NCBI GenBank assembly: GCA_025453925.1
Contig: JALOPK010000040.1
Span: forward strand, 1-15,129
DNA length: 15,129 nucleotides
From: Candidatus Eiseniibacteriota bacterium
Lineage (GTDB): Bacteria; JAFGKV01
Reading direction: 5' to 3'
The translations under genes and the position numbers were made by a program. Shown here in pieces: positions 3,030-15,129 of the stretch. The notes below the pieces were generated by a model. It saw only the letters and a list, made by a program, of their open reading frames with translations. It was not told where the DNA came from and ran no database searches. Position 1 is the first letter of the stretch; each line of letters begins with the position of its first letter.

Positions 3030-4370
3030 GTGAGAGTCACGCTGATCAACCCACTGTGGACCCGGGGCAAGAGGCTCCGGGGCCCTGTGTACAACCGAGT
3101 CTGGCCGCCCCTTTCCCTCGCCACGGCAGCTGCGATGATCCGTGATGCCGGGGCCGAGGTGACCCTCATCGACGCCAATGCCGAGAGGATTCCCGCCTCG
3201 GCGTTGACCTCCATGATTGAGGGCGACCTGGCATTTGTCACCAGTTCGACTCTTGACAAATGGGTATGTCCCAACACCGAGCTCGACCCGTTCCTCGCCG
3301 CGGTCGAGGCAGTCAGGACGGCCATCCCGAAGGTAGTGGTGGTGGGAGTCCACGGCACGGTGAAGCCGGCCGAGATGCTGCGGGCTACGGGAGCGTACGC
3401 GGTGGTGCTGGGTGAGCCGGAGGCGACCATGCGCGACCTGGCGCGCGGGCTGCCCCGGGAGGCGACGCCGGGGATCGCCTACATGGACGCCGGCGCGCTG
3501 GTGACCACCGAGCCCCGCTCCCTGTTGGATCTTGCCCAGCTTCCGATCCCGGCGATGGATCTGCTGCCGATGGAGCGCTACCGGTATGAAATCCTTGGTG
3601 AACGCCTCATGCTGCTGGAGGCGACGCGAGGATGCCCACATGGATGCCGCTTCTGTCTCCGCGCCATGTACGGCGGCAGGGTGTTCCGCAGGAAGCCCGC
3701 CCCGCAGGTCTGCCGCGAGATACGCGAGGCGGTCCTCGCTCACGGCGCCCGCAGTCTGTACTTCATAGATATCGAGTTCACGATAGATCGCGCCAGCGCT
3801 TTGGCCGTCTGCGACTGCATCGAAGACCTGGGAGAATCGATCCCCTGGTGCTGCCAGACCCGGGCTGACAGCCTTGACCAGGCCCTTCTCCATCGCATGC
3901 GCCAGGCAGGGTGCCGGCTCGTGCACTTCGGCGTGGAGTCGGGGAGCGATCGGGTTCTGACCAGCATCCGAAAGGGCGAGACTACCGACATCATCCGCAC
4001 CGGGGTGCGCATGGCGCAAGACGCGGGAATGGAAACCGCCTGCTTCTTCATGTTCGGGTTTCCCGGCGAAACTGCTGAGGACATGGAGGCCACCATCGAG
4101 TTCGCCAAGGAACTGGCGCCGACCTATGCCTCGTTCCACGTGCTCGAACCCTATCCCGGCACGCCCATGGCCGATGACCTCGGAGACGCGCTAGCGGGGG
4201 ATTTCTTTCCCCTTACCTACCGGTTCCCCGGCCCTGACCTGAAGGCCGTTCAGCGCCGGGCGCTCATGCGGTACTACCTGCGGCCTGCTTATGTTTTCCG
4301 CCGGCTCTCCAGAGGATCGCTCCGCATGCTGGCGCGGCAGATTGGGATCTTTGCAGACTACCTTCGCTGA
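3030..4370 (+). CDS. B12-binding-domain radical SAM protein (COG1032 type)
   Basis: This 446-residue protein has the two-part build of cobalamin-type radical SAM enzymes. Residues 1 to about 135 form a Rossmann-like B12-binding domain: RVTLINP start, WPPLSLATAAAMI (25-37), VTLID (44-48), VVVGVHGT (103-110) and GEPEAT (128-133). The radical SAM core follows from about 195 with EATRGCPHGCRFC, whose C202, C206 and C209 hold the 4Fe-4S cluster, then the GVESGS motif (301-306), MFGFPGET (341-348) and EPYPGTPM (373-380). As is usual in this subgroup, the DxHxxG cobalamin motif is not evident. Family members include methyltransferases acting on unactivated carbon or phosphorus, and cyclases such as BchE; the substrate here is unknown. 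Its last 80 nt overlap the longest reading of the nucleotidyltransferase. The position among glycosyltransferases suggests a sugar or lipid-carrier modification (inference). Confidence 0.9.
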   Translation: MRVTLINPLWTRGKRLRGPVYNRVWPPLSLATAAAMIRDAGAEVTLIDANAERIPASALTSMIEGDLAFVTSSTLDKWVCPNTELDPFLAAVEAVRTAIPKVVVVGVHGTVKPAEMLRATGAYAVVLGEPEATMRDLARGLPREATPGIAYMDAGALVTTEPRSLLDLAQLPIPAMDLLPMERYRYEILGERLMLLEATRGCPHGCRFCLRAMYGGRVFRRKPAPQVCREIREAVLAHGARSLYFIDIEFTIDRASALAVCDCIEDLGESIPWCCQTRADSLDQALLHRMRQAGCRLVHFGVESGSDRVLTSIRKGETTDIIRTGVRMAQDAGMETACFFMFGFPGETAEDMEATIEFAKELAPTYASFHVLEPYPGTPMADDLGDALAGDFFPLTYRFPGPDLKAVQRRALMRYYLRPAYVFRRLSRGSLRMLARQIGIFADYLR

Positions 4371-5442
4371 TCCGCGCCCTGCCGGCCGTCTGACCGCATC
4401 CGGCGGGCCCGATGGGGAGGCCAGGGCCTTCGATGACCTCCGGCGTGTCGCGGATGCCATCGAAGAGGCGTTTCCTGACCTTCTCACCCTCGCGGTGATC
4501 GGCGCCTTTGGACGCGGAGAAGGCGCCATGGTGCGCACCGAGGCGGGGGTGGCGCCCTGGAACGACTACGATCTGCTGCTGGTCACGCCAACCCGGGGCG
4601 GGTGGGAACGCATCAGTGCGGTCTGCCGGGAACTGAAGACCAGGCTCGGCCTTCCCGGCATTGACATTGTGCCGTTCACCCCGAAAGACCTGGTCCGTGC
4701 CGCGGACACCATGCTCGTGCATGACGCCCGGGCGGGCCATCACGTGATCCGCGGCGACGGGAGCACTCTGGCGGCATTGCCCGCACGATCGGTGGCCCGC
4801 CGCGAGGCGCTCATCTTGCTCCTGAACAGAATGGTCTGCCTGCTGGAGTGCCCTCCCCGGGACCTCACCGGACTGCCGGAGGACCCGCTTCGGTTCCCTT
4901 CTCAGGTGAGCAAGGCAGTGATGGCGGTCATAGACGCGGCGCTGGTCAGGGCGGGCGAGTATGCCGTCACCTACCGTGAGAAGGTCGCCCGGTTCAAGTC
5001 GCTCGCACCGGGCGACGTGCTCGTACCGGCCGCGGAGGATGCGCTCTCGTTTCGCTTTGAGCCCGGCCCGCGCCAGTGGGATCCGGGGCTGTGGCATCTC
5101 GCCGGCGCGAGGCTCCTCGACGCCATCGGCGAGTTCGTGGGGTGCCCGGGATCACAGGCGGAGCGCACCGGCAGGAGGCTCTGGCGGGACCGATTCCGTC
5201 CCGTGAGGCATACCGCCCGATCCCTGCTCCGGGGGAGACTCCCCGACGCCCGGCGCCGGGCGGTGGAGTGCGCGGAAGTGCTCGTGCTGGCGGCGTCCAG
5301 GCGAGAGGGCGAGGAGCGGGCCGAGATGCTCCGGGAGGCCCGCGGTTTCATAGAACGCTCGGCCCCCATGCCGCCCTTCACCGATTGGCACCAGGCCGCC
5401 CGCCTCACGGTCGGGCGCTGGTTCGAAATCTGCTACGGATAG
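4291..5442 (+). CDS. Pol-beta-superfamily nucleotidyltransferase
   Basis: This protein is up to 383 residues. The catalytic core of the DNA polymerase beta-type nucleotidyltransferase fold is visible: GAFGRGEG (71-78) as the nucleotide-binding turn, NDYDLLLV (91-98) with metal ligands D92 and D94, and GIDIVPF (123-129) with D125 as the third carboxylate. DARAGHHVIRGD (145-156) follows, as in related stand-alone transferases. The C-terminal half (about 165-383) is mostly helical and rich in Arg and Glu, of unknown role. Such enzymes move an NMP to a protein, RNA, sugar or small molecule; nothing shows which. The start is uncertain: ATG 4291 has no Shine-Dalgarno and overlaps the radical SAM gene by 80 nt. 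TTG 4342 or TTG 4351 (weak GGGA upstream) would shorten it by 17 or 20 residues without touching the core. It ends 11 nt before the phosphatase-fold gene, so the two are probably co-translated. Confidence 0.8.
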   Translation: MFSAGSPEDRSACWRGRLGSLQTTFADPRPAGRLTASGGPDGEARAFDDLRRVADAIEEAFPDLLTLAVIGAFGRGEGAMVRTEAGVAPWNDYDLLLVTPTRGGWERISAVCRELKTRLGLPGIDIVPFTPKDLVRAADTMLVHDARAGHHVIRGDGSTLAALPARSVARREALILLLNRMVCLLECPPRDLTGLPEDPLRFPSQVSKAVMAVIDAALVRAGEYAVTYREKVARFKSLAPGDVLVPAAEDALSFRFEPGPRQWDPGLWHLAGARLLDAIGEFVGCPGSQAERTGRRLWRDRFRPVRHTARSLLRGRLPDARRRAVECAEVLVLAASRREGEERAEMLREARGFIERSAPMPPFTDWHQAARLTVGRWFEICYG

Positions 5443-5453
5443 AGGCGGATCCC

Positions 5454-6653
5454 ATGACTGACTCTCACCTGCTCATGGTGCTGGTGGATGCCCTGCGGCA
5501 TGATCAGATCGACGCCGGTCGCACCCCCTTCCTCTGGGAGACGGCCCGCACCGGCTCTCTGGGCGCCACCCAAGAGGTACTCGCCGGCCAGCTCAGGCCC
5601 GCCTTCTTCGCGGGGCTCTGGCCAAATGAGAGCGGCGTGGGGCATTTGTTCAGCTACGACCCTTCTTCATCACCGTTCCGTGCCGCGCGATTCGTGCCCC
5701 CCTGTGTTGACCGTTCGCCCCGCGCGGCGTGGTGGGTGCGACGGGGCCTGCGGGCGGCGGCCTCCCGGATCGAAGCACGGCGTGGCCACCGCGGTAGCTC
5801 CGCCTACTGCTACCTGGCGGAGATCCCGACGTCCAGGCTGCCGCTGTTCGCGTTTTCCGAAACGGAGCTTCCCTGGGAAGACCGCACCCTGCCCAGGCCG
5901 GGTCTGCTGCGGATCCTCTCGGCGCAAGGGATTCCCTGGCTGCATCTCGGGTATCCCGTCATCGACCAGAGGACCTCGTTTCTCACCGAGGCCGCGCTCT
6001 CCCGCATGCGTGGGCCTCACCGCATGGTGTTCCTCCACTACGCCGAACTGGACTGGGTGGGGCATGAACACGGACCTTTGGGAGATCGCGCCGATTCGAC
6101 CCTCGCCGCCATCGATCGCAGCCTCGAGAAGGTGTGGCGGCACGCCGCATCCCTGTGGCCCTGCGCCAGGCTCCTGGTCTTCGGCGATCACGGCATGGTA
6201 CCGGTACGCGGTGAAGTAGACGTATTGCGCGCTTTGAGAGAGCTCCCCTTGCGGCATGGGCGCGACTACGCCGTGTTCCTCGACTCCACGGTAGCCCGCT
6301 TCTGGTTTCTCACCCCCCGGGCGAGACCGCTCATCGTTGACCTGCTCGCCGCGCTCCCGGGCGGTCGTTGGCTCACTCCCGCCGATATGGACGACCTGCA
6401 TCTCCGCGGCACGCGTCGCGAGAACGGGGAGGCCTTCTGGCTCCTCGATGAGGGCCTGGTGATCATGCCGTCCTACTTCCAGCGGGAGGCACGACCCGCC
6501 GGCATGCACGGGTATCACCCCTCGGTCCGCGACAACTGGGGAGCCGTCGTGACCGCGGACGGCTCGGGGCCTACCCATGCGGTACCGCTCACCGAGGTAT
6601 TTCCCCTGGCCCTGGGCATGCTCGGCCTGTGCCCGGGCACGGTTCTGCCGTGA
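5454..6653 (+). CDS. Alkaline-phosphatase-superfamily protein lacking an obvious nucleophile
   Basis: This is a 399-residue cytoplasmic protein with no signal peptide; it begins directly with the first core strand. The start is ATG 5454, with GAGG (5442-5445) 8 nt upstream; longer readings would only overlap the preceding gene. Metal-site residues of the phosphodiesterase fold are present: D12 in VDALRHD, D200 and H204 in ELDWVGHEHG, D245-H246 in GDHGM and H352 in GMHGY. At the nucleophile position, 10 residues before the Gly of the FFAG turn, the sequence LAGQLRPAFFAGLWP has A44, and no Ser or Thr is nearby (closest T39). It may be a non-hydrolytic binder, a phosphomutase-like enzyme with another nucleophile, or a subfamily where the RPAFFAG segment is normal. 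It sits 11 nt after the nucleotidyltransferase and its TGA overlaps the next ATG by 1 nt, implying joint expression with the membrane protein. Confidence 0.82.
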   Translation: MTDSHLLMVLVDALRHDQIDAGRTPFLWETARTGSLGATQEVLAGQLRPAFFAGLWPNESGVGHLFSYDPSSSPFRAARFVPPCVDRSPRAAWWVRRGLRAAASRIEARRGHRGSSAYCYLAEIPTSRLPLFAFSETELPWEDRTLPRPGLLRILSAQGIPWLHLGYPVIDQRTSFLTEAALSRMRGPHRMVFLHYAELDWVGHEHGPLGDRADSTLAAIDRSLEKVWRHAASLWPCARLLVFGDHGMVPVRGEVDVLRALRELPLRHGRDYAVFLDSTVARFWFLTPRARPLIVDLLAALPGGRWLTPADMDDLHLRGTRRENGEAFWLLDEGLVIMPSYFQREARPAGMHGYHPSVRDNWGAVVTADGSGPTHAVPLTEVFPLALGMLGLCPGTVLP

Positions 6654-8566
6654 TGTCTACCTCAAGCGACTGGCTGGCCTTGCTGCGGGTGGGCGCCGGC
6701 GCGGGGGCGTTGTGGATCCTGCCGTGGTGGGGTGTGGCCGGGCTGCTGCGGCCGAAGAGCGCCGCGGCCCGAACCAGCCTGGCATTCCTTGCGGGAGTGG
6801 TCGCCAACGTCGCGTCATCCTATGTCCTCATCGTCGTCGGGCGGTACACGCCGTGGACCGGGCTCGTCGCCCATGGGGGCCTTGCAGCGGCAGCGATTAT
6901 GTGGTCGGTGCGGCGCAGGGCTCCCTCCGCCGGCATCATGCCCTGGCCCCTGGCGCTGGCGGCGGCGGGCGCGGTGGCCTTGCGCCTTCCTGATGCCCTG
7001 GCGCACTTCAGCCTCGGAGGCAATGATCCGTGGGGGCATTTCGTCTTGTGCAAGGCACTGGCCGCGGGCGATCCCGTCGCGGCGTTTCACCCATTCTCGT
7101 TCTATCCTCGCGGCTACCATGCCTTGGTCCTGACGCTCAATGCCGTCTCAGGCGTCACCATCTATGACATCATGCGGCTCTTCTCCCCCCTGCTGGCCGT
7201 TGTCGGGGTGTTCGGGGCGTATGCCCTGGCCCACCGGGTGTCGGGCCGTTTCGGCGGTCTGGCGGCCGCCTTCATCTATGCGGTGCCGCCCTACCGGCAC
7301 CTGGTGCTGCCCTCGCTGCAGACGGCGCTGGAACCCGACCGCTTCGCCTTCGCCTTCCTCCCGGCCGTGATCCTGCTCGTGATGGATATGGTGGAGAACC
7401 CTTCAACGGCGGTCGCCGTCGTGCTGCTGATCAGCGAGATGGTGCACCTGCTCATCCACCCGCTTTCGGTGCAGTTCTCCGTTGGATGGATCGCCTGCGG
7501 CGCGGCGGCCGCCGTGCTGACGCGCAGGCGCGTGTGGCCGCTGGTGTTCACCGGGTTGGCGGTGATGGTGTTCGCCGGGGGGTACTTCCACGTGATGCGC
7601 GCCGCCTATGGCATCCACGTGATGCCCCACCTTTCCCCCGCGTCGGCCTTTGCGGTGGGCGGATTCGGAATCGACATCCGTCGCGTCGTTCTGGGCACCG
7701 GCTGGCAGGTGGAGGCCATGGACCTGCTGGGCCTGGCCCTGGCCGGGGTGCTGATCTGGCGCAGCCTTCGCCTGCGGGATCCTCTGCGGCTCGCGCTCGC
7801 GCTGGTGTTGCTCCACACGACCTACGCCGCGACCCGCGATGCCCTCTACTTTGGCGACTTCGGGCACGCGCCGCCCTACTACGCCATGGCGTTCGCGTGG
7901 GTGGCGGGCGGCCTGGCGGGTGACGATGCGTTCGCCTCGTGGCGGGGGATCGCGCCCTTGGGCTGCATGGCCGTGCTCCTGGGGCATCGAATCATGTCAG
8001 GGGGCATTACTCCCCTCCCCGGCATGTTGCTCGCGGCCGCGGGGATGCTCGCTGCGGGTTGCCTGGCAGCGCCCCGGATCAGGGAGAGCCTGGCGGCTCT
8101 CTTCGTCGGCGTCGCGCTCTTCTCCCTCCGGCCCCAACCGGTGGCCTACCCCCACCTTGGCTATCCTGAGGCGGTACGGTGGGCCCACGAACTGCTGTCG
8201 GTACCCCCCGGTGTGGTGTTCTCCGCCGGCCTCATCTCCCGGATGCCTGACGGCACGCCGTTTCCCACCCAGGACCCGGTGCAGGCCATCGTGTGGCCTC
8301 GCCATCGACCCGCGCCTCTGGCGGCCCTGCTGACGAGGCCGCCCGACTACCGCTGGCCGTCGAACGAGCCGGTCTATGCCGTCGTGGAAACCGAGCCCCA
8401 CGGGTGGGGTTTCCCCTACTTCGCCGGCGAAGAGCGGACTGCCCTGATGGAGAGGGTGGTTCGCTGGCTCGCGGAGCGGACGAGGAGTGGAGCGCCGGTC
8501 CGCACGGTCGAGTCCACCGGCCGCATGCTGCTGCTCGCGCTGCACGATGCGGAGGAAGGATGCTGA
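6653..8566 (+). CDS. Polytopic membrane protein, predicted GT-C-type glycosyltransferase
   Basis: This is a 637-residue integral membrane protein with roughly a dozen hydrophobic segments between about residues 10 and 495, then a soluble C-terminal domain (about 500-637). After the third hydrophobic segment comes an acidic/aromatic loop, GGNDPWGHF (122-130), with D125 as a candidate catalytic Asp. It is followed by FSFYPRGYHALVL (148-160), which resembles the YPxGYHxL loop of GT-C glycosyltransferases. EPDR (227-230) and HxxxHP (265-270) are further conserved-looking polar sites inside membrane regions. GT-C enzymes transfer sugars from polyprenyl-phosphate donors on the outer face of the membrane. 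The ATG at 6653 overlaps the previous TGA by 1 nt; no good Shine-Dalgarno is visible, so translation is probably coupled. It could alternatively be a polymerase or ligase of the same fold. The membrane topology is clear, the enzymatic class less so. Confidence 0.8.
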   Translation: MSTSSDWLALLRVGAGAGALWILPWWGVAGLLRPKSAAARTSLAFLAGVVANVASSYVLIVVGRYTPWTGLVAHGGLAAAAIMWSVRRRAPSAGIMPWPLALAAAGAVALRLPDALAHFSLGGNDPWGHFVLCKALAAGDPVAAFHPFSFYPRGYHALVLTLNAVSGVTIYDIMRLFSPLLAVVGVFGAYALAHRVSGRFGGLAAAFIYAVPPYRHLVLPSLQTALEPDRFAFAFLPAVILLVMDMVENPSTAVAVVLLISEMVHLLIHPLSVQFSVGWIACGAAAAVLTRRRVWPLVFTGLAVMVFAGGYFHVMRAAYGIHVMPHLSPASAFAVGGFGIDIRRVVLGTGWQVEAMDLLGLALAGVLIWRSLRLRDPLRLALALVLLHTTYAATRDALYFGDFGHAPPYYAMAFAWVAGGLAGDDAFASWRGIAPLGCMAVLLGHRIMSGGITPLPGMLLAAAGMLAAGCLAAPRIRESLAALFVGVALFSLRPQPVAYPHLGYPEAVRWAHELLSVPPGVVFSAGLISRMPDGTPFPTQDPVQAIVWPRHRPAPLAALLTRPPDYRWPSNEPVYAVVETEPHGWGFPYFAGEERTALMERVVRWLAERTRSGAPVRTVESTGRMLLLALHDAEEGC

Positions 8567-9480
8567 CCCTTTCCATCATCATCCCGACCTACAACCGTGG
8601 CGACCTGCTCATGCGAGGGGTCAAGGAGCTGGCAATACAGTGCAGCGGCGTGGACGCCCAGATCATCGTGATCGATGACGGATCGGTTGACGACAGCCCC
8701 GGCCTGGTGGAACGCTGGGCCGCCGAGTCACGGATGCCGGTGCACGTCATCAGGCAGGAGCACCGGGGCCCTGCCACCGCAAGAAATCGCGGGCTCGACT
8801 GCGCCGCAGGACATCTCGTGCTCTTCATGGGCGATGACATCTTCCCGGCGCCCGGGCTGGTGCATGCCCATCTGGCCCACCACCGGCGTTTCCCCTCTCC
8901 CGAAGTGGCGGTGCTGGGCCGGGTCACGTGGAGTCCCGACCTTCGGATCACCCCACTCATGCAATGGCTCGAACACGGCGGCCCGCAGTTCTGTTACGAC
9001 CGGATCGCCGATCCCCTGGCGGTGCCGCCGACCTTCTTCTGGACCGCCAATGTCTCGGCGAAGACCGCATTCGTCAGGGGTGCGGGCGGCTTCTCCCCGC
9101 GATTCCCGGACGCCGCGTTCGAGGACGTGGAGCTGGGGGTACGGCTGGCACGGAGCGGCATGGCGTTGCACTATGCGCCGGAGGCGCTGGGGTATCATCA
9201 CCATGCCGTTTCGCTCCTCCGCAGCCTGGCGCGCATGGAAACGCTGGCGCAGGGGGCGCTGATCGCCAATGACACGATGCCAGGGCTGATCTCGCTGGGG
9301 CACGACACCCGGTGGGGCCGGGCGCGTCGCGCTCTGGCCCATGACCGACGCATACTGGCGCTTCTCCGCGCCCTGGCGCCGGTCTGCACCGCGGTGCCGG
9401 CATGCAGGGCGACGTATTTCCGACTCGTGCACGATCTCCACTATCGGGCGGCCATCCGCCGACGTGTCCGGGAGGTCTGA
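8560..9480 (+). CDS. Family 2 glycosyltransferase (GT-A fold)
   Basis: This is a 306-residue protein with a classic GT2 layout: LSIIIPTYNRG (4-14) first strand, IVIDDGSVDD (36-45) for nucleotide binding, ARNRGLD (74-80), the metal-binding GDD at 91-93, FFWTANVSAKTAF (159-171) before the acceptor site, and FEDVELGVRLARSGM (187-201) with the candidate catalytic base D189. No transmembrane segment is evident, so it acts at the cytoplasmic membrane face using an NDP-sugar; sugar and acceptor are unknown. The start is ATG 8560, with GGAGGAAGG at 8551-8559 immediately upstream. It overlaps the end of the GT-C-like gene by 7 nt and touches the following glycosyltransferase by 1 nt. A longer open reading upstream is only an overlap artefact. 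Confidence 0.92.
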   Translation: MLTLSIIIPTYNRGDLLMRGVKELAIQCSGVDAQIIVIDDGSVDDSPGLVERWAAESRMPVHVIRQEHRGPATARNRGLDCAAGHLVLFMGDDIFPAPGLVHAHLAHHRRFPSPEVAVLGRVTWSPDLRITPLMQWLEHGGPQFCYDRIADPLAVPPTFFWTANVSAKTAFVRGAGGFSPRFPDAAFEDVELGVRLARSGMALHYAPEALGYHHHAVSLLRSLARMETLAQGALIANDTMPGLISLGHDTRWGRARRALAHDRRILALLRALAPVCTAVPACRATYFRLVHDLHYRAAIRRRVREV

Positions 9481-10427
9481 TGATCTCCATCGTGACGGTG
9501 ACGTTCAATGCCCGGGAGCATGCCAGGGAGTGTCTGCGGTCGGTCATCTCCGCCTCGCCCATGGCCGGGGACTATGAGCACATCGTTGTTGACAACGCCT
9601 CCGGGGATGACACGGCCGGGATGGTGGCCAGGGAGTTCCCGGGGGTCATTCTGGTTCGCAGCGGGGAGAACCTGGGGTTCGCCCGCGGAGCGAATCTCGG
9701 CATGCGGCGGGCTCGGGGGGAGCACCTGCTGCTGCTCAACCCGGACTGCGTCCTCCCCGCCGGCGCGGTGGAAGGCCTCGTCCGGTTCATGGACGACCAT
9801 CCCCGCGCGGGGGCTGTCAGTCCCATGCTGCTGACGCCCGAGGGCCTTCCCCAGATCTCATACGCCCGGTTTCCCCGGCTCGTGCCGCACCTCCTCGGTC
9901 TCTCGCCCCTGGGGTGGTTCGTTCCGGGACGTTTCAAGGACACGGGCTTCGGCGGCGTGCCGCCCGCGCGGGAGGAGAAGACCCACCGGGAGGTGGATGC
10001 CCCGGCCGGTTCCTGCCTCCTGGTTCGGCGCGCGGCCTACGAATCCACCGGGGGTATGGACGAGCGCTTCTTCACCTACTATGAAGACATCGACTGGGCC
10101 TACCGCATGGCGCAGGACGGCTGGCTCCGCTTCTACGTGCCGTCGGTACGGGTGACCCATGACATGGGCGCGACATGGCGGACCCTGCCCGACGGGTTGC
10201 AGCTTGCCCGCTCGTACGAGGGCAAGTACCTCTACTTCACCGCCCGCTGCGGACGCCTGGGCGGACCCCTCGTTCGGTGGACCACCGTGTGGTGCGCCCG
10301 TTTCAACGTGCTGATCGGCACCATGGCAGCACGGCTGGGCATCCGAGGCGGATCGTGGGGCAGGAAGCTCGCATTCAACTCCGCGCTGCTGTCCGCGCAC
10401 CGCACCTATCTTCGCGGGAGGGCATGA
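9480..10427 (+). CDS. Family 2 glycosyltransferase, WbbL/rhamnosyltransferase-like
   Basis: This 315-residue protein carries the hallmarks of the WbbL-like GT2 branch: ISIVTVTFN (2-10), VVDNASGDDT (36-45), ENLGFARGANLGM (63-75), LLLNPDC (84-90) with the metal-binding Asp, GSCLLVRRAAYESTGGMDE (177-195), and FTYYEDIDWAYRM (198-210) with the ED pair and Trp. A conserved-looking His lies in VTHDMGATWR (225-234). This branch includes rhamnosyltransferases that extend O-antigen and cell-wall polysaccharides, but donor specificity cannot be read from sequence. The start is ATG 9480, overlapping the upstream TGA by 1 nt, with GGGAGG (9470-9475) 4 nt before it. Its own TGA overlaps the next ATG by 4 nt. 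The C-terminal portion (from about 240) is weakly hydrophobic and Arg-rich, suggesting peripheral membrane attachment. Confidence 0.93.
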   Translation: MISIVTVTFNAREHARECLRSVISASPMAGDYEHIVVDNASGDDTAGMVAREFPGVILVRSGENLGFARGANLGMRRARGEHLLLLNPDCVLPAGAVEGLVRFMDDHPRAGAVSPMLLTPEGLPQISYARFPRLVPHLLGLSPLGWFVPGRFKDTGFGGVPPAREEKTHREVDAPAGSCLLVRRAAYESTGGMDERFFTYYEDIDWAYRMAQDGWLRFYVPSVRVTHDMGATWRTLPDGLQLARSYEGKYLYFTARCGRLGGPLVRWTTVWCARFNVLIGTMAARLGIRGGSWGRKLAFNSALLSAHRTYLRGRA

Positions 10428-11506
10428 CGGCGCGCTCCACGGGTGAGGCTGAAGGCGGCATGGCGGCACGCGCCGGCCGGCTGCTGGCGATGGCGCGTGA
10501 CCGCGGCGTGGCAACCACGCTCAACCATGTCGCGGCCGCCATCGCGGTGCGGCGCCGGCCCCGGGTGGTCCGTTCCTGGCCGAGATTCCTGCAATTCGAG
10601 GTCACGAGCCGCTGCAACATGGCGTGCGCCCAGTGTTCCCGTTCCACTCTCGGGGTGCCGGCACGGCAGGGGCACATGAGTCTGACCCTGTTCGAGTCGC
10701 TGCTCGGGCAGTTTCACCGATATCAGTCGGTGACCCTCCACGGTCTGGGCGAGCCGCTGCTCAATCCCGAACTGCCTGCCATGGTCAAGGCGGTCCGGGC
10801 GCGATCCGCCCACGTACGGGTGGGCTTCAACACCAACGGGCTGCGGTTGACTCCGGATCTCGCGCGGAGTCTGGCTGAGGCCGGTTTGGATGAAATCGGC
10901 GTCAGTCTGGATGCGGCGTCTTCGGACACGCACCGGGCGGTTCGCGGCGGCGGATTCGAGGAGATCGTCGCTCGCGTGCGTGCCGTCTGCGCCAGCCGTG
11001 AGCCACGGCCGGCCATGGCGCTGGCTTTGGTGGTGATGGAGCCCAACATCGGCGAGTTGGTGCAGTTCGTCGAACTGGGGAAATCCTTGGGGGTGGACCG
11101 TGTGAGCCTCTGCGACCTCAGCATGAGATGGAGAGCGCAGGGAGCGGACCCCATGGCGGTGCGAAGCCTTGACGCGGCGAGGCAGAACAGCCTGGAGGCG
11201 GAGCGCCGGGCCCGGGAGGCCGGGCTTCCTTTCTGGTACACCCGACTTGACAGGGCGCTGTGGCCCGACGCGTTCATCCCCTGCTTTTACCTCTGGGACT
11301 ATCCGTACATCACATGGGAGGGCCGACTCACGCCGTGCTGCGCACTCCCGTACGCTGAGCACTCGCTGGGTGACCTTCGCGCCACGCCGTTTCGCCGACT
11401 CTGGAACGGGCCCGCATATCGCGCCATGCGCGCGGCGCTGGTCTCCGGGCGCATTCCTCCCCCCTGCGCGAACTGCCACCACGCCTCCCCGGAGGGTCCG
11501 CCGTGA
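10424..11506 (+). CDS. Radical SAM protein with SPASM/twitch-like C-terminal cysteines
   Basis: This is a 360-residue protein. The radical SAM core begins at about residue 55: FEVTSRCNMACAQC gives C64, C68 and C71 for the 4Fe-4S cluster, HGLGEPLLNP (106-115) is the GGEP-type SAM-binding strand, and GFNTNGL (134-140) and EIGVSLDAA (157-165) are the next barrel strands. Auxiliary-cluster cysteines follow: C287, C305, C306, C348 and C351, in the order expected for a SPASM or twitch domain (Pfam SPASM-like, MoaA/COG0535 group). Such enzymes modify peptides, sugars or cofactors by radical chemistry; among glycosyltransferases a sugar substrate (epimerisation, dehydration or deoxygenation) is the natural guess. 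The start is ATG 10424 with GGGAG just upstream; ATG 10460 behind GAAGG is a possible alternative, 12 residues shorter. It overlaps both neighbours by 4 nt. No precursor-peptide gene is visible nearby. Confidence 0.9.
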   Translation: MTARSTGEAEGGMAARAGRLLAMARDRGVATTLNHVAAAIAVRRRPRVVRSWPRFLQFEVTSRCNMACAQCSRSTLGVPARQGHMSLTLFESLLGQFHRYQSVTLHGLGEPLLNPELPAMVKAVRARSAHVRVGFNTNGLRLTPDLARSLAEAGLDEIGVSLDAASSDTHRAVRGGGFEEIVARVRAVCASREPRPAMALALVVMEPNIGELVQFVELGKSLGVDRVSLCDLSMRWRAQGADPMAVRSLDAARQNSLEAERRAREAGLPFWYTRLDRALWPDAFIPCFYLWDYPYITWEGRLTPCCALPYAEHSLGDLRATPFRRLWNGPAYRAMRAALVSGRIPPPCANCHHASPEGPP

Positions 11507-13008
11507 CACGGGAGATCCTTCTGGTGTATCCGGGCAGCCACATGGCCGTCTCTGGGGAGGAGCTCTCGTCGGACCCGGGGCGCAGCCTGCCCATGGGGCT
11601 GCTGTTTCTGGCCGCCGCTCTGGAACGGGCCGGCTTCCGGGTGCATCTGCACGATGCGCGCCTTCATGCCAAGGCCGTGACCGAGGCGTGGCTCGCGGAG
11701 CATCTGCCTCGCGATCCGGTCTTTCTCGGGATATCGGCGATGACGGTCCAGGTCGCGCACGGCCTCTCGATCGCCCGGCGTGCCAGGGCCCTGGCCCCGA
11801 GAGTGCCCATCGTCTGGGGCGGGGCGCATGCGAGCCTCTTTCCCACCACCACGGCGGCAGACCCCGCCGTGGACTGGGTGCTTCCCCGGGAGGCTGATGA
11901 AAGCGCGGTGATGCTGGCCCGGGCGCTCACGGACGGCGGCGCGCTGTCGGATATCCGCGGCCTTCTCTCCCGCACCGGCGGGGGCGTCACAACCACCGGC
12001 GAGGCGCCGTTGCCCGACGTCGCCACCCTCCCGTCACCGGCGTACCATTTGATCGACCTGACCCGGTATGCCCCGCGACGCATCCCGGACGGAGGCACGG
12101 TCATGGGCGTCGACGTGCTGACGTCCCGTGGATGCCCGTACCGGTGCGCGTTTTGCCCCAACGAACTTCTCCTGGGGCGACGATGGCGGAAACGCCCCGT
12201 CGACCAGGTCAAAGACGAACTCGATCACCTTCTGGTGACCGGCGCGATCAACCACGTGTGGTTCATGGATGACCTCTTCATCGGTGACACCAACCGTGTG
12301 GCCGACATCCTGGATCACCTCCACGGGCGGTACCCCGCCGTCAGATGGGAGGCCAATGTCCGGGCGGACATGTTCCGTGCCGGGCTGGTCGACGCTTCAT
12401 TCCTGCGATACCTCCGGGAGACCGGGTGCGCCTGCCTGCGCATGGGTGCGGAGAGTGGAAACAACGATGTGCTGGCCCTGCTCCAGAAGGATATCACGGT
12501 GGAGGAGACCGAACACGCCGCCGCGGCCTGTCTCGATGCGGATATCGTGCCCCTGTTGTTCTTCATGATGGGCATTCCGGGAGAGAGCCGATCGCAGCTC
12601 TTCGACACTCTCGCGTTCATGGCGCGGCTCAAGCGACGGTTCCCCCGCGCCATGGTGTGCGGCCCGGGCCTCTTCCGTCCGTATCCCGGGGGATCCCTGT
12701 ATGAGAAGGCCTTGGATTTGGGACTCCGCGAGCCGCCGGACCTCGCGGGTTGGGCACGGGAACTGGGCCCGCAGGGCTTCCTCCAATCGGGGAGGTTGCC
12801 CTGGATCGAGGACCCCGGCCTCATGGAGGACATTCTGTTCAGTATGTTCTATGTCGAGGAATTCGATCGACTCGGTGACTACCCCCACCCCTGGCTGCGC
12901 AGACGGCTCGCCGGCCTGGCCTTCTGGCGCGCGGAACACCGATCCTGGGGGTTTCGGGTCGAAGCGCGACTGCGCCGGCTGGCTCGGAGCATGCGGAGCC
13001 GGGCATGA
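11503..13008 (+). CDS. Second B12-binding-domain radical SAM protein
   Basis: This is a 501-residue protein. Residues 1 to about 145 form the cobalamin-binding-type domain: REILLVYPG (3-11), LPMGLLFLAAALERAGF (29-45), FLGISAMT (74-81) and IVWGGAHASLFP (103-114). The radical SAM domain starts with TSRGCPYRCAFCPN, where C211, C215 and C218 bind the cluster. It continues with VWFMDDLFI (252-260), CLRMGAESGN (311-320), MMGIPGES (355-362) and FRPYPGGSLY (391-400). A helical C-terminal domain (about 430-501) rich in Trp, Arg and Leu ends the protein. It belongs to the same broad class as the enzyme at 3030-4370 but is clearly divergent, so it is not a recent duplicate. The GTG at 11503 overlaps the previous TGA by 4 nt, with GGAGGG (11491-11496) 6 nt upstream. 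Likely chemistry is radical methylation or a related reaction on a carbohydrate or lipid; substrate unknown. Confidence 0.92.
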   Translation: MTREILLVYPGSHMAVSGEELSSDPGRSLPMGLLFLAAALERAGFRVHLHDARLHAKAVTEAWLAEHLPRDPVFLGISAMTVQVAHGLSIARRARALAPRVPIVWGGAHASLFPTTTAADPAVDWVLPREADESAVMLARALTDGGALSDIRGLLSRTGGGVTTTGEAPLPDVATLPSPAYHLIDLTRYAPRRIPDGGTVMGVDVLTSRGCPYRCAFCPNELLLGRRWRKRPVDQVKDELDHLLVTGAINHVWFMDDLFIGDTNRVADILDHLHGRYPAVRWEANVRADMFRAGLVDASFLRYLRETGCACLRMGAESGNNDVLALLQKDITVEETEHAAAACLDADIVPLLFFMMGIPGESRSQLFDTLAFMARLKRRFPRAMVCGPGLFRPYPGGSLYEKALDLGLREPPDLAGWARELGPQGFLQSGRLPWIEDPGLMEDILFSMFYVEEFDRLGDYPHPWLRRRLAGLAFWRAEHRSWGFRVEARLRRLARSMRSRA

Positions 13009-14237
13009 AGCTGGGCATTGACATCCGATGGCTGCACGAGGCGCTGATCAACGTGCCTTTGTTTGCCGCCGAGGCCGACGATCTGCAGGTCCCGGGCCCG
13101 TCCGGGGCCCAGTCAGGCAATCTGGGCGGGGTCGGGCGATACCTGGACGAACTCCTCCCGCTTCTGGCGTCCCGGCTGCACGAGGCTGAGTGCCTCTTCT
13201 GCGTCCTGGAGGATCAGGCGATTCCGGCGCACATGGCGGATGTGTGGCCCCGGGCTCGGATGGTGGGGCTTCCCGCCCGCTGGAGGCCCCAGGGAAACGC
13301 TCTCGGTCTCCTCGCCAATGTGGCGGCGTGGCGCGTGCGTCGGGCGTCCAGTCGAACCCTGGCGCCGCTGGGACTCGACGTGTTCCTCAGCCCTCAACAG
13401 TTGGTGGTGCCCGGCACTGCATGGGCGCGCCACCACGCCGTGGTGTGCCATGATCTGGCCTTCCTCCAGCGCCCGGACCTGTTCTTCCGTTCCGGCACGG
13501 TACCGCCGTCTTACCGCGCCCACTACCGTGCCCTTGCCCGGGCGGAACAGCTCATCGCGGTGTCGGAGCGCACGGCGACCACGCTGGTCGAGATGCTCGG
13601 CGTCGATCCCGAGCGGATCACCGTGACGCTGGAGGGCATCAATTCCGCTTTCACGCCAGACGGGCCGGCCTTCGCGCCGGGGTGGCCCTATGCCATGTGC
13701 GCCGGCAGCGCGGGACCGGGGAAGAACGTTCCTGTGGTGGTAGAGGGCTGGGTCCGGGCACGCCGGCACGGGGAGCCGCTGCGACTGCTCCTGGCGGGGG
13801 CGCCGCGGGAGCGGGTCCGCGAACTGGCGGCGGGCTGTGCGCCGGGGGACGCAGCAGCGATCCATCGAGTAGCGGCACCGGGCGATGCCCAGCTCGCCGC
13901 GCTCTACCGGGGGGCCTCGATGTTGCTCATTCCGTCGCTGGTGGAGGGCTTCGGCCTTCCGGCACTCGAGGCCATGGCCTGCGGATGTCCCGTGATCACC
14001 GCCCACGGCACTCCCATGGCGGACATGGTGGGCGCGGCGGCCCTCGTGGTGGCGCCGGATCGCCCCGATGAGCTTCGTGATGCCATCGTGCGTCTCTCCG
14101 GTGACGATGCGCTACGGCGACGGCTCATCGATGCCGGAAGGCTGGCGGTGGCCGGCTACACATGGGAGAGGACCGCCGACCTCACTGCCGCGACGATCCG
14201 CAGTCTCGCCGCCCGGCCCGGTCGCTTCACGCAGTGA
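13005..14237 (+). CDS. Family 4 glycosyltransferase (GT-B fold)
   Basis: This is a 410-residue protein with the GT4 two-domain plan. The N-terminal domain opens with KLGIDIRWL (2-10), and the glycine loop GGVGRYLDELLPLL (41-54) contacts the acceptor or donor phosphate. VCHDLAF (147-153) holds the central His-Asp, and AEQLIAVSERT (180-190) is the strand and turn before the interdomain linker. In the C-terminal domain CAGSAGPGKN (232-241) is the donor phosphate loop with K240, and PSLVEGFGLPALEAMACG (310-327) contains the EX7E motif (E314, E322). It is a retaining enzyme using an NDP-sugar at the cytoplasmic side. The stretch between strand 1 and GGVGRY is about 30 residues, longer than usual. 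The start is ATG 13005, overlapping the preceding TGA by 4 nt, with GGAG (12995-12998) 6 nt upstream. It is the last gene of the tightly coupled chain; a 70-nt gap follows. Confidence 0.93.
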   Translation: MKLGIDIRWLHEALINVPLFAAEADDLQVPGPSGAQSGNLGGVGRYLDELLPLLASRLHEAECLFCVLEDQAIPAHMADVWPRARMVGLPARWRPQGNALGLLANVAAWRVRRASSRTLAPLGLDVFLSPQQLVVPGTAWARHHAVVCHDLAFLQRPDLFFRSGTVPPSYRAHYRALARAEQLIAVSERTATTLVEMLGVDPERITVTLEGINSAFTPDGPAFAPGWPYAMCAGSAGPGKNVPVVVEGWVRARRHGEPLRLLLAGAPRERVRELAAGCAPGDAAAIHRVAAPGDAQLAALYRGASMLLIPSLVEGFGLPALEAMACGCPVITAHGTPMADMVGAAALVVAPDRPDELRDAIVRLSGDDALRRRLIDAGRLAVAGYTWERTADLTAATIRSLAARPGRFTQ

Positions 14238-14307
14238 TCATGCTATGCTCGCGAGGTGAGCGGTGGCGAGTCTCGCATGAACCGCACCCCGTGAACTGAT
14301 CTCTCCC

Positions 14308-15129
14308 ATGCTCCCCTACATCGCGGCCGGCTTCGGATTGGGGCTCTTGCTGTATCCCTGGCTGAGTCCCGCCCAGGGCATCCTCTCTCTGTCTCAGGAA
14401 ATGGCCCGCCAGTTCGTACTGTTGGGGATCACGTTGTTCATCGCCGCGAATGTGAAGGGTGCCCTCGCCCTCAAGCGCATTCCCATCTGGCTGCCGGCGT
14501 GCATTGCCGCACTCGCCGCCCTGCTGGTGCGGAGCACGGTGCTCGCCGGGCTCCCGTTTGTTCCCGGTGATGAGGACGAGTATCTCTTCCAGGCCCGTAT
14601 CTTCGCCCGCGGGCACGTCACGGCGCCCGCTCCTCCGCATGCGGAGCGATTCTGGGCGCCGGGCATTCTGATCCACGGAGCGCGCTGGTTCGGGCACCAC
14701 CAACCGGGCCACAGCCTCCTTCTGGCCGCGGGCGTGGTGCTGGGAATCCCGGGCATCATCCCTGCGGTTTCGACCGGACTCACGGTCCTGCTCCTGTCCA
14801 TGACCGCGCGGCGGCTGGCCGGACCGGATGCGGGAGCACTGACCGCCCTGCTGGCTATGACGAGTCCGATGCTGCTGCTCACCGGCGCGACTCTGGTCAG
14901 CGAGACGACCTCACTGCTGGCGGTGGCCGCCATCTTCTGGCTCGCGGTCGCCGAACCATTCGGGAGGAGGTCCTTGCTCCTGGCGGGCCTCATGGTCGGG
15001 TGGTTGTTGAACGTCCGCCTCATGACGGGGATCAGCGCGGGGCTGGCGACAATGGTCCTGCTGGGCGCACGCTTCCGGTTCCTCCTGCCGGGGATCGGCG
15101 TGGGAATCGCCGGCATGATGGCCCACAAC
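14308..15129 (+). CDS. Polytopic membrane protein, GT-C/GT39-like glycosyltransferase, 3' end outside the window
   Basis: The reading frame runs from ATG 14308 to the right edge without a stop (274 residues seen). An in-frame TGA at 14278 limits the start; no Shine-Dalgarno is visible before this ATG. Hydrophobic segments lie at about residues 4-18, 36-50, 60-82, 134-167, 178-196, 200-216 and 222-270. After the third comes the loop FVPGDEDEYLFQARIFARG (84-102), whose acidic D88-E89-D90-E91-Y92 series and following A..FARGH pattern match the first extracytoplasmic loop of GT39/ArnT-type GT-C enzymes. FWAPGILIHGARWFGHHQPGH (from residue 115) follows, reminiscent of the 'YPPGhp' loop of that class. 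It probably transfers sugar from a polyprenyl-phosphate donor outside the cytoplasm. The 70-nt gap (14238-14307) has no strong promoter or terminator, so read-through from the operon is possible. Confidence 0.85.
   Translation, partial: MLPYIAAGFGLGLLLYPWLSPAQGILSLSQEMARQFVLLGITLFIAANVKGALALKRIPIWLPACIAALAALLVRSTVLAGLPFVPGDEDEYLFQARIFARGHVTAPAPPHAERFWAPGILIHGARWFGHHQPGHSLLLAAGVVLGIPGIIPAVSTGLTVLLLSMTARRLAGPDAGALTALLAMTSPMLLLTGATLVSETTSLLAVAAIFWLAVAEPFGRRSLLLAGLMVGWLLNVRLMTGISAGLATMVLLGARFRFLLPGIGVGIAGMMAHN

Follow-up and report, generated by a model that had tools for sequence, protein, structure and literature searches.

What could be made by a locus that encodes three different radical S-adenosylmethionine (SAM) enzymes among its glycosyltransferases? 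The question is raised by a 15,129-nucleotide stretch of bacterial DNA (hereafter the window), which is one whole contig (C354) of a 3.9-Mb metagenome-assembled genome that is 82% complete and is placed with Candidatus Fermentibacteria. Comparison of the window genome (G000) with two relatives from the same phylum (G001 and G002), complemented by a wider search of 386 genomes, led us to conclude that genes g3 to g12 (positions 3030–15129) probably form one conserved surface-glycan locus with radical modification of its sugars, the glycan being perhaps attached to a lipid or protein carrier. We favour this interpretation because the gene order is conserved in both relatives, a distant locus of the same layout lies beside the exporter genes Wzm/Wzt, the nearest distant homologues of the radical SAM protein g9 occur mostly in polysaccharide loci, radical SAM genes are enriched near glycosyltransferase genes, and the closest relatives in the PDB are sugar or cyclitol enzymes. 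The first three and the last of these points also support the shared pathway toward a surface glycan that a preliminary description of the window had proposed.

Gene order in the relatives was checked by tblastn of the window proteins. G002 (contig C184) keeps g3–g12 and G001 (contig C16) keeps g3–g11 in identical order and on the same strand, the latter contig ending after g11. The locus is thus present in 3/3 phylum genomes examined, with the radical SAM genes retained in both syntenic copies, and because the order is conserved in all of them we regard it as a real gene set. Identities to the window proteins in the two relatives amount to 82/66% for g3, 77/66% for g10, 65/60% for g9 and 60/52% for g6, and the truncated g12 is 58% identical to a 542-aa protein at the same place in G002. 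Since other genes stand upstream of the locus in the relatives, namely a nitroreductase gene in G001 and a divergent NMT1-like solute-binding gene in G002, g1 and g2 lie outside the unit. The second PF01663 protein of the window, g2, had been considered as a cluster member and was rejected, as g1–g2 are not found beside the locus in the relatives. The genes of the window, with Pfam and NCBIfam hits judged against curated cut-offs, are:

10–1155, + strand: g1, no Pfam family
1485–2876, + strand: g2, PF01663
3030–4370, + strand: g3, B12-binding-type radical SAM protein (COG1032-like); PF04055 88.6 bits, PF02310 45.7 bits
4351–5442, + strand: g4, nucleotidyltransferase-like by signature; no Pfam family
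5454–6653, + strand: g5, alkaline-phosphatase-superfamily protein, predicted cytoplasmic; PF01663 57.1 bits
6653–8566, + strand: g6, GT-C-like multi-pass membrane protein of 637 aa; no Pfam match
8560–9480, + strand: g7, GT2 glycosyltransferase; PF00535 81.1 bits
9480–10427, + strand: g8, GT2 glycosyltransferase; PF00535 78.1 bits
10424–11506, + strand: g9, radical SAM protein with SPASM/twitch domain; PF04055 74.9 bits, SPASM 48.8 bits
11503–13008, + strand: g10, B12-binding-type radical SAM protein; PF02310 59.6 bits, PF04055 57.4 bits
13005–14237, + strand: g11, GT4 glycosyltransferase; PF13692 72.6 bits
14308–15129, + strand: g12, GT-C/PMT_2-like membrane protein, truncated where the contig stops; PMT_2 21.9 bits, below the cut-off of 26.1

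The three radical SAM proteins, two of the B12-binding type and one with a SPASM/twitch domain, and the GT2, GT2 and GT4 enzymes reported earlier were all recovered with domains above cut-off, the GT-C-like genes being only weakly matched. The last two radical SAM genes indeed lie between glycosyltransferase genes in an overlapping chain, with 4-base overlaps at g8/g9, g9/g10 and g10/g11. The genes listed in the preliminary description were correct; g4 and g5 had been left out. For g4, the start codon TTG at 4351 was picked from the relatives, and ATG at 4291 would give an 80-base overlap with g3.

A link to a surface product comes from a locus in the distant genome G044 (L060), an O-antigen-type locus with an ATP-binding cassette (ABC) exporter. 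It runs in the order epimerase, Wzm, Wzt with a PF14524 carbohydrate-binding C-terminus, B12-binding-type radical SAM protein, nucleotidyltransferase, fusion of phosphodiesterase and GT2, GT2, B12-binding-type radical SAM protein and GT4. From the first radical SAM gene onward this layout corresponds to that of the window, whereas phosphodiesterase and GT2 are fused there (L060:10774–13143, 789 aa; the two domains share 35–36% identity with g5 and g7), no SPASM or GT-C gene occurs, and an exporter is present that the window lacks. Because this locus combines the fusion with an exporter, it connects g5 and g7 with a single surface-glycan product. The equal layout had suggested that its radical SAM proteins are orthologues of g3 and g10, which was rejected by a tree that placed them in other subfamilies. 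Between the two layouts the core is kept and the radical SAM proteins are exchanged.

All three radical SAM proteins pass the PF04055 cut-off and contain an intact CxxxCxxC motif at residues 202 (g3), 64 (g9) and 211 (g10). In g3 and g10 a B12-binding domain is fused to the radical SAM core (PF02310 above the cut-off of 32.1), as in B12-dependent class B radical SAM methyltransferases, while in g9 the residues Cys 287, 305, 306, 348 and 351 are invariant across the three genomes and the 287-305-348-351 spacing fits a twitch-like pattern with one cluster. The NCBIfam scores of all three remain far below the curated cut-offs, and hence none of them is one of the named enzymes. Neither of the outcomes named at the outset as undoing the shared pathway, absence of the radical SAM genes from syntenic loci or a fixed role such as one in tRNA or tetrapyrrole metabolism, was found: the genes are retained in the relatives, and no radical SAM protein passes an NCBIfam cut-off for a tRNA or tetrapyrrole enzyme (MiaB-RimO: g3 45.5 and g10 20 bits vs 251; BchE: g3 138 and g10 97 bits vs 481). 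The family TIGR04295 (B12_rSAM_oligo) shares the B12-binding plus radical SAM plan of g3 and g10, but is matched at 116 and 85 bits only, against a cut-off of 400.

Sequence search of the PDB revealed sugar, cyclitol or nucleoside-sugar enzymes (AprD4, BlsE and BtrN) as the nearest solved structures of all three proteins, weakly so for g9; we treat these as leads toward sugar chemistry and not as assignments. For g9 the closest structures are BtrN and the cytosylglucuronate decarboxylase BlsE (E 2e-6 and 2e-7), radical SAM enzymes acting on cyclitol and sugar substrates, although similarity is low and the second half of g9 shows no significant alignment with BtrN (2.1 bits). For g3 and g10 it is AprD4 (6fd2; E 1.3e-30 and 2.6e-18). 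These alignments, however, cover the radical SAM core only, the scores with the AprD4 model NF033070 (136.6 and 73 bits) fall short of its cut-off of 500, and no AprD3-like NADPH reductase gene was recognised among g1–g12 (Pfam) or in the loci of the relatives. AprD4 is the radical SAM diol dehydratase of apramycin biosynthesis, which together with the reductase AprD3 deoxygenates paromamine, and the B12-dependent radical SAM enzymes GenK and GenD1 C-methylate aminoglycoside sugars (PMC5461906). As the nearest structure, AprD4, is a dehydratase, the B12-binding domain of g3 and g10 is no proof of methylation.

A different substrate is suggested by the NCBIfam matches: the radical SAM proteins could modify the lipid moiety in a glycolipid (hopanoid-like, another isoprenoid or a fatty chain), with the glycosyltransferases merely glycosylating it. 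The best NCBIfam match of g3 is HpnJ (161 bits), which g10 matches as well (108 bits), and both proteins match the lipid-biosynthesis family TIGR04072. However, these scores stay far under the respective cut-offs of 577.6 and 360, neither the locus nor its orthologous loci contain an isoprenoid or fatty-acid gene, and the distant layout in G044 adjoins a polysaccharide ABC exporter with the Wzt C-terminal domain, leading us to consider lipid tailoring rather unlikely. The PDB relatives themselves, together with the weak likeness of the g4 family to aminoglycoside nucleotidyltransferases, would also agree with a small diffusible aminoglycoside- or nucleoside-like metabolite in place of a surface polymer. 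In contrast, the locus encodes two GT-C-like membrane proteins while no exporter, resistance gene or cyclitol synthase was recognised in it, related loci have flippases or Wzm/Wzt, and strict conservation in all three phylum genomes would be more typical of a structural product; we hold a diffusible metabolite to be very unlikely.

The third alternative, a chance grouping of the radical SAM genes, depends on how frequent such genes are. With 73 PF04055 matches in 3.9 Mb of the window genome, three radical SAM genes per locus are not extreme by themselves. Based on the positions of PF04055, PF00535 and PF13692 matches in the three genomes, 23/71, 23/68 and 19/56 radical SAM genes have a glycosyltransferase gene no more than 5 kb away, with 8.8, 7.1 and 7.0 expected, which corresponds to an enrichment of about 2.5–3 times over chance. 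Even with this locus excluded the enrichment persists (P 1e-4, 5e-6 and 1e-4), the P values being rough since the null assumes independent positions and takes no account of contig ends or operon clustering. Chance adjacency of genes with unrelated roles, which the richness of the genome in radical SAM genes would favour, thus appears close to negligible in view of this enrichment and of the order and overlapping frames conserved in three genomes, the synteny coming close to refuting it.

The same counts changed the standing of the locus, which had been presented as exceptional on the assumption that ordinary polysaccharide loci carry few or no radical SAM genes. Loci with at least two radical SAM genes and at least one glycosyltransferase gene number nine in the window genome and seven and five in the relatives, and several of them have orthologues among the three genomes according to a tree of the B12-type proteins. 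Likewise, the nearest relatives of g9 in other lineages are mostly found in loci with GT4, flippase, DegT, epimerase or O-antigen-ligase genes. Radical-SAM-bearing glycan loci are a general habit of the lineage, and the present locus is not exceptional. Other loci of the phylum in which glycosyltransferase genes are accompanied by two to five radical SAM genes include G001:C140 (L070), G000:C397 (L072) and G001:C201 (L071), with five radical SAM matches on the 15-kb contig of L070.

Several observations count against a surface glycan with radically modified sugars. The radical SAM proteins of the G044 locus are not orthologous to g3 or g10, and the GT-C-like call for g6 and g12 comes from weak or sub-threshold matches. 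No gene for nucleoside-diphosphate-sugar synthesis, flippase, polymerase or ABC exporter was recognised by Pfam in the window; export genes (flippase/polymerase or ABC exporter) were likewise not recognised beside the locus in G002, and are present in related loci. Moreover, the lipid-tailoring families HpnJ and TIGR04072 score about equal to the sugar families, and AprD4 may rank first partly because few COG1032 structures exist.

If the product is a surface glycan, as we favour, its substrate, the reactions and their order, and its location could be envisaged as follows. The glycosyltransferases g7, g8 and g11 would assemble an oligosaccharide in the cytoplasm, with g4 and g5 possibly serving as a precursor-tailoring pair drawn from a broader group of polysaccharide loci. 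The radical SAM proteins g3, g10 and g9 would use radical chemistry to alter carbons of the sugars, most likely through C-methylation or deoxygenation in the case of g3 and g10, and through oxidation, epimerisation or a similar reaction in the case of g9. The GT-C-like proteins g6 and g12 might act on the lipid-linked sugar at the outer face. To our knowledge, most B12-binding-type radical SAM proteins are without an assigned substrate; three radical SAM genes placed between glycosyltransferase genes, in all phylum genomes examined, point to sugar substrates that can be tested by expression.

The two genes missing from the earlier inventory recur well beyond the phylum. With a g5 profile made from four sequences, matches at E ≤ 1e-15 were obtained in 16/386 genomes, and in 13 of the 14 loci with a complete g5 a g4 homologue stands directly before it on the same strand, as counted in the neighbourhoods L060, L071 and L123–L135, with L133 cut by a contig end. 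In L126 no g4 homologue is found beside g5, although a copy is encoded at another place in that genome (L061). Most of these adjacencies do not depend on the nucleotidyltransferase profiles used, because the first profile (A8) was built without L123–L135 and the second without L127 and L129. The loci with the pair mostly carry flippases and glycosyltransferases, flippase-like genes being close by in L123, L124, L127, L128, L131, L132, L133 and L134. The two genes represent a widespread and apparently undescribed enzyme pair, whose recurrence provides a genome-context handle on two protein groups of glycan loci in many lineages.

Among 15 members of the g4 family, the G, GE and DxD positions of GxxxxGEG...DxD are invariant (one G) or nearly so (G, E, D and D), and the G[GSA]...DxD signature of polymerase-beta-type nucleotidyltransferases is present. 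Together with this signature, weak matches of the family profile to 6sxj and 4ebj (E 0.0041 and 0.017), the former match being streptomycin 3''-adenylyltransferase, suggest a weak likeness to aminoglycoside nucleotidyltransferases, from which g4 differs by the weak significance of the matches, its lack of a Pfam assignment and its longer C-terminal part. PF01909 matches 1/15 family members, weakly (E 0.013), and the predicted structure of g4, calculated from a three-row alignment, is poor, with a predicted local distance difference test score (pLDDT) of 52.7.

The partner protein g5 matches PF01663 and retains D12, D200, H204, D245, H246 and H352, which are invariant in 14/14 members and which we take, from the alignment and general knowledge, to be metal ligands; it lacks, however, the Ser/Thr nucleophile of the alkaline-phosphatase-superfamily phosphodiesterases. 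At position 44, presumably that of the nucleophile judging from the family alignment and general knowledge of the superfamily, eight members have Ser; g5 (Ala44), its two orthologues and the L060 member have Ala, and the members from L071 and L135 have Arg. The Ser-less members belong to radical-SAM-rich loci (g5 with its orthologues, L060 and L071), except for L135, whose 5.9-kb contig does not allow a judgement. Of the loci with Ser, L125 alone has a radical SAM match, about 7.6 kb away. Because the Ala and Arg groups separate in the g5 tree, Ser was probably lost twice; the sample is small, however, and the Arg group aligns with gaps around the site. Ser loss in the radical-SAM-rich variants makes altered chemistry a specific prediction. 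As a speculation with only a small chance of being right, g4 might nucleotidylate a sugar hydroxyl and g5 might normally remove or transfer the group, so that in radical-SAM-rich loci a Ser-less g5 would not hydrolyse the nucleotidylated sugar but keep it or pass it on to serve as the radical SAM substrate.

In the open-access papers searched, radical SAM genes in O-antigen or polysaccharide loci, Fermentibacteria with radical SAM proteins, and a set of nucleotidyltransferase, alkaline phosphatase and flippase were not directly described, which does not prove their absence from the literature. The kind of locus is known; the variant with three radical SAM proteins, the g4–g5 pair and a changed g5 is not described in that literature.

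An Rfam scan of the window gave no matches. A weak NCBIfam match of g6 to the archaeal STT3 family TIGR04154 reaches 23.8 bits against a cut-off of 450, and the predicted structure of g6 is poor as well (pLDDT 50.0, three-row alignment). Homologues of g6 were found in 3/386 genomes, all of them Fermentibacteria, and share an invariant GGNDPWGH stretch. Upstream of the locus, the N-terminal stretch of g2 ends in LGC and resembles a lipoprotein signal, and g2 carries Thr at the nucleophile position.

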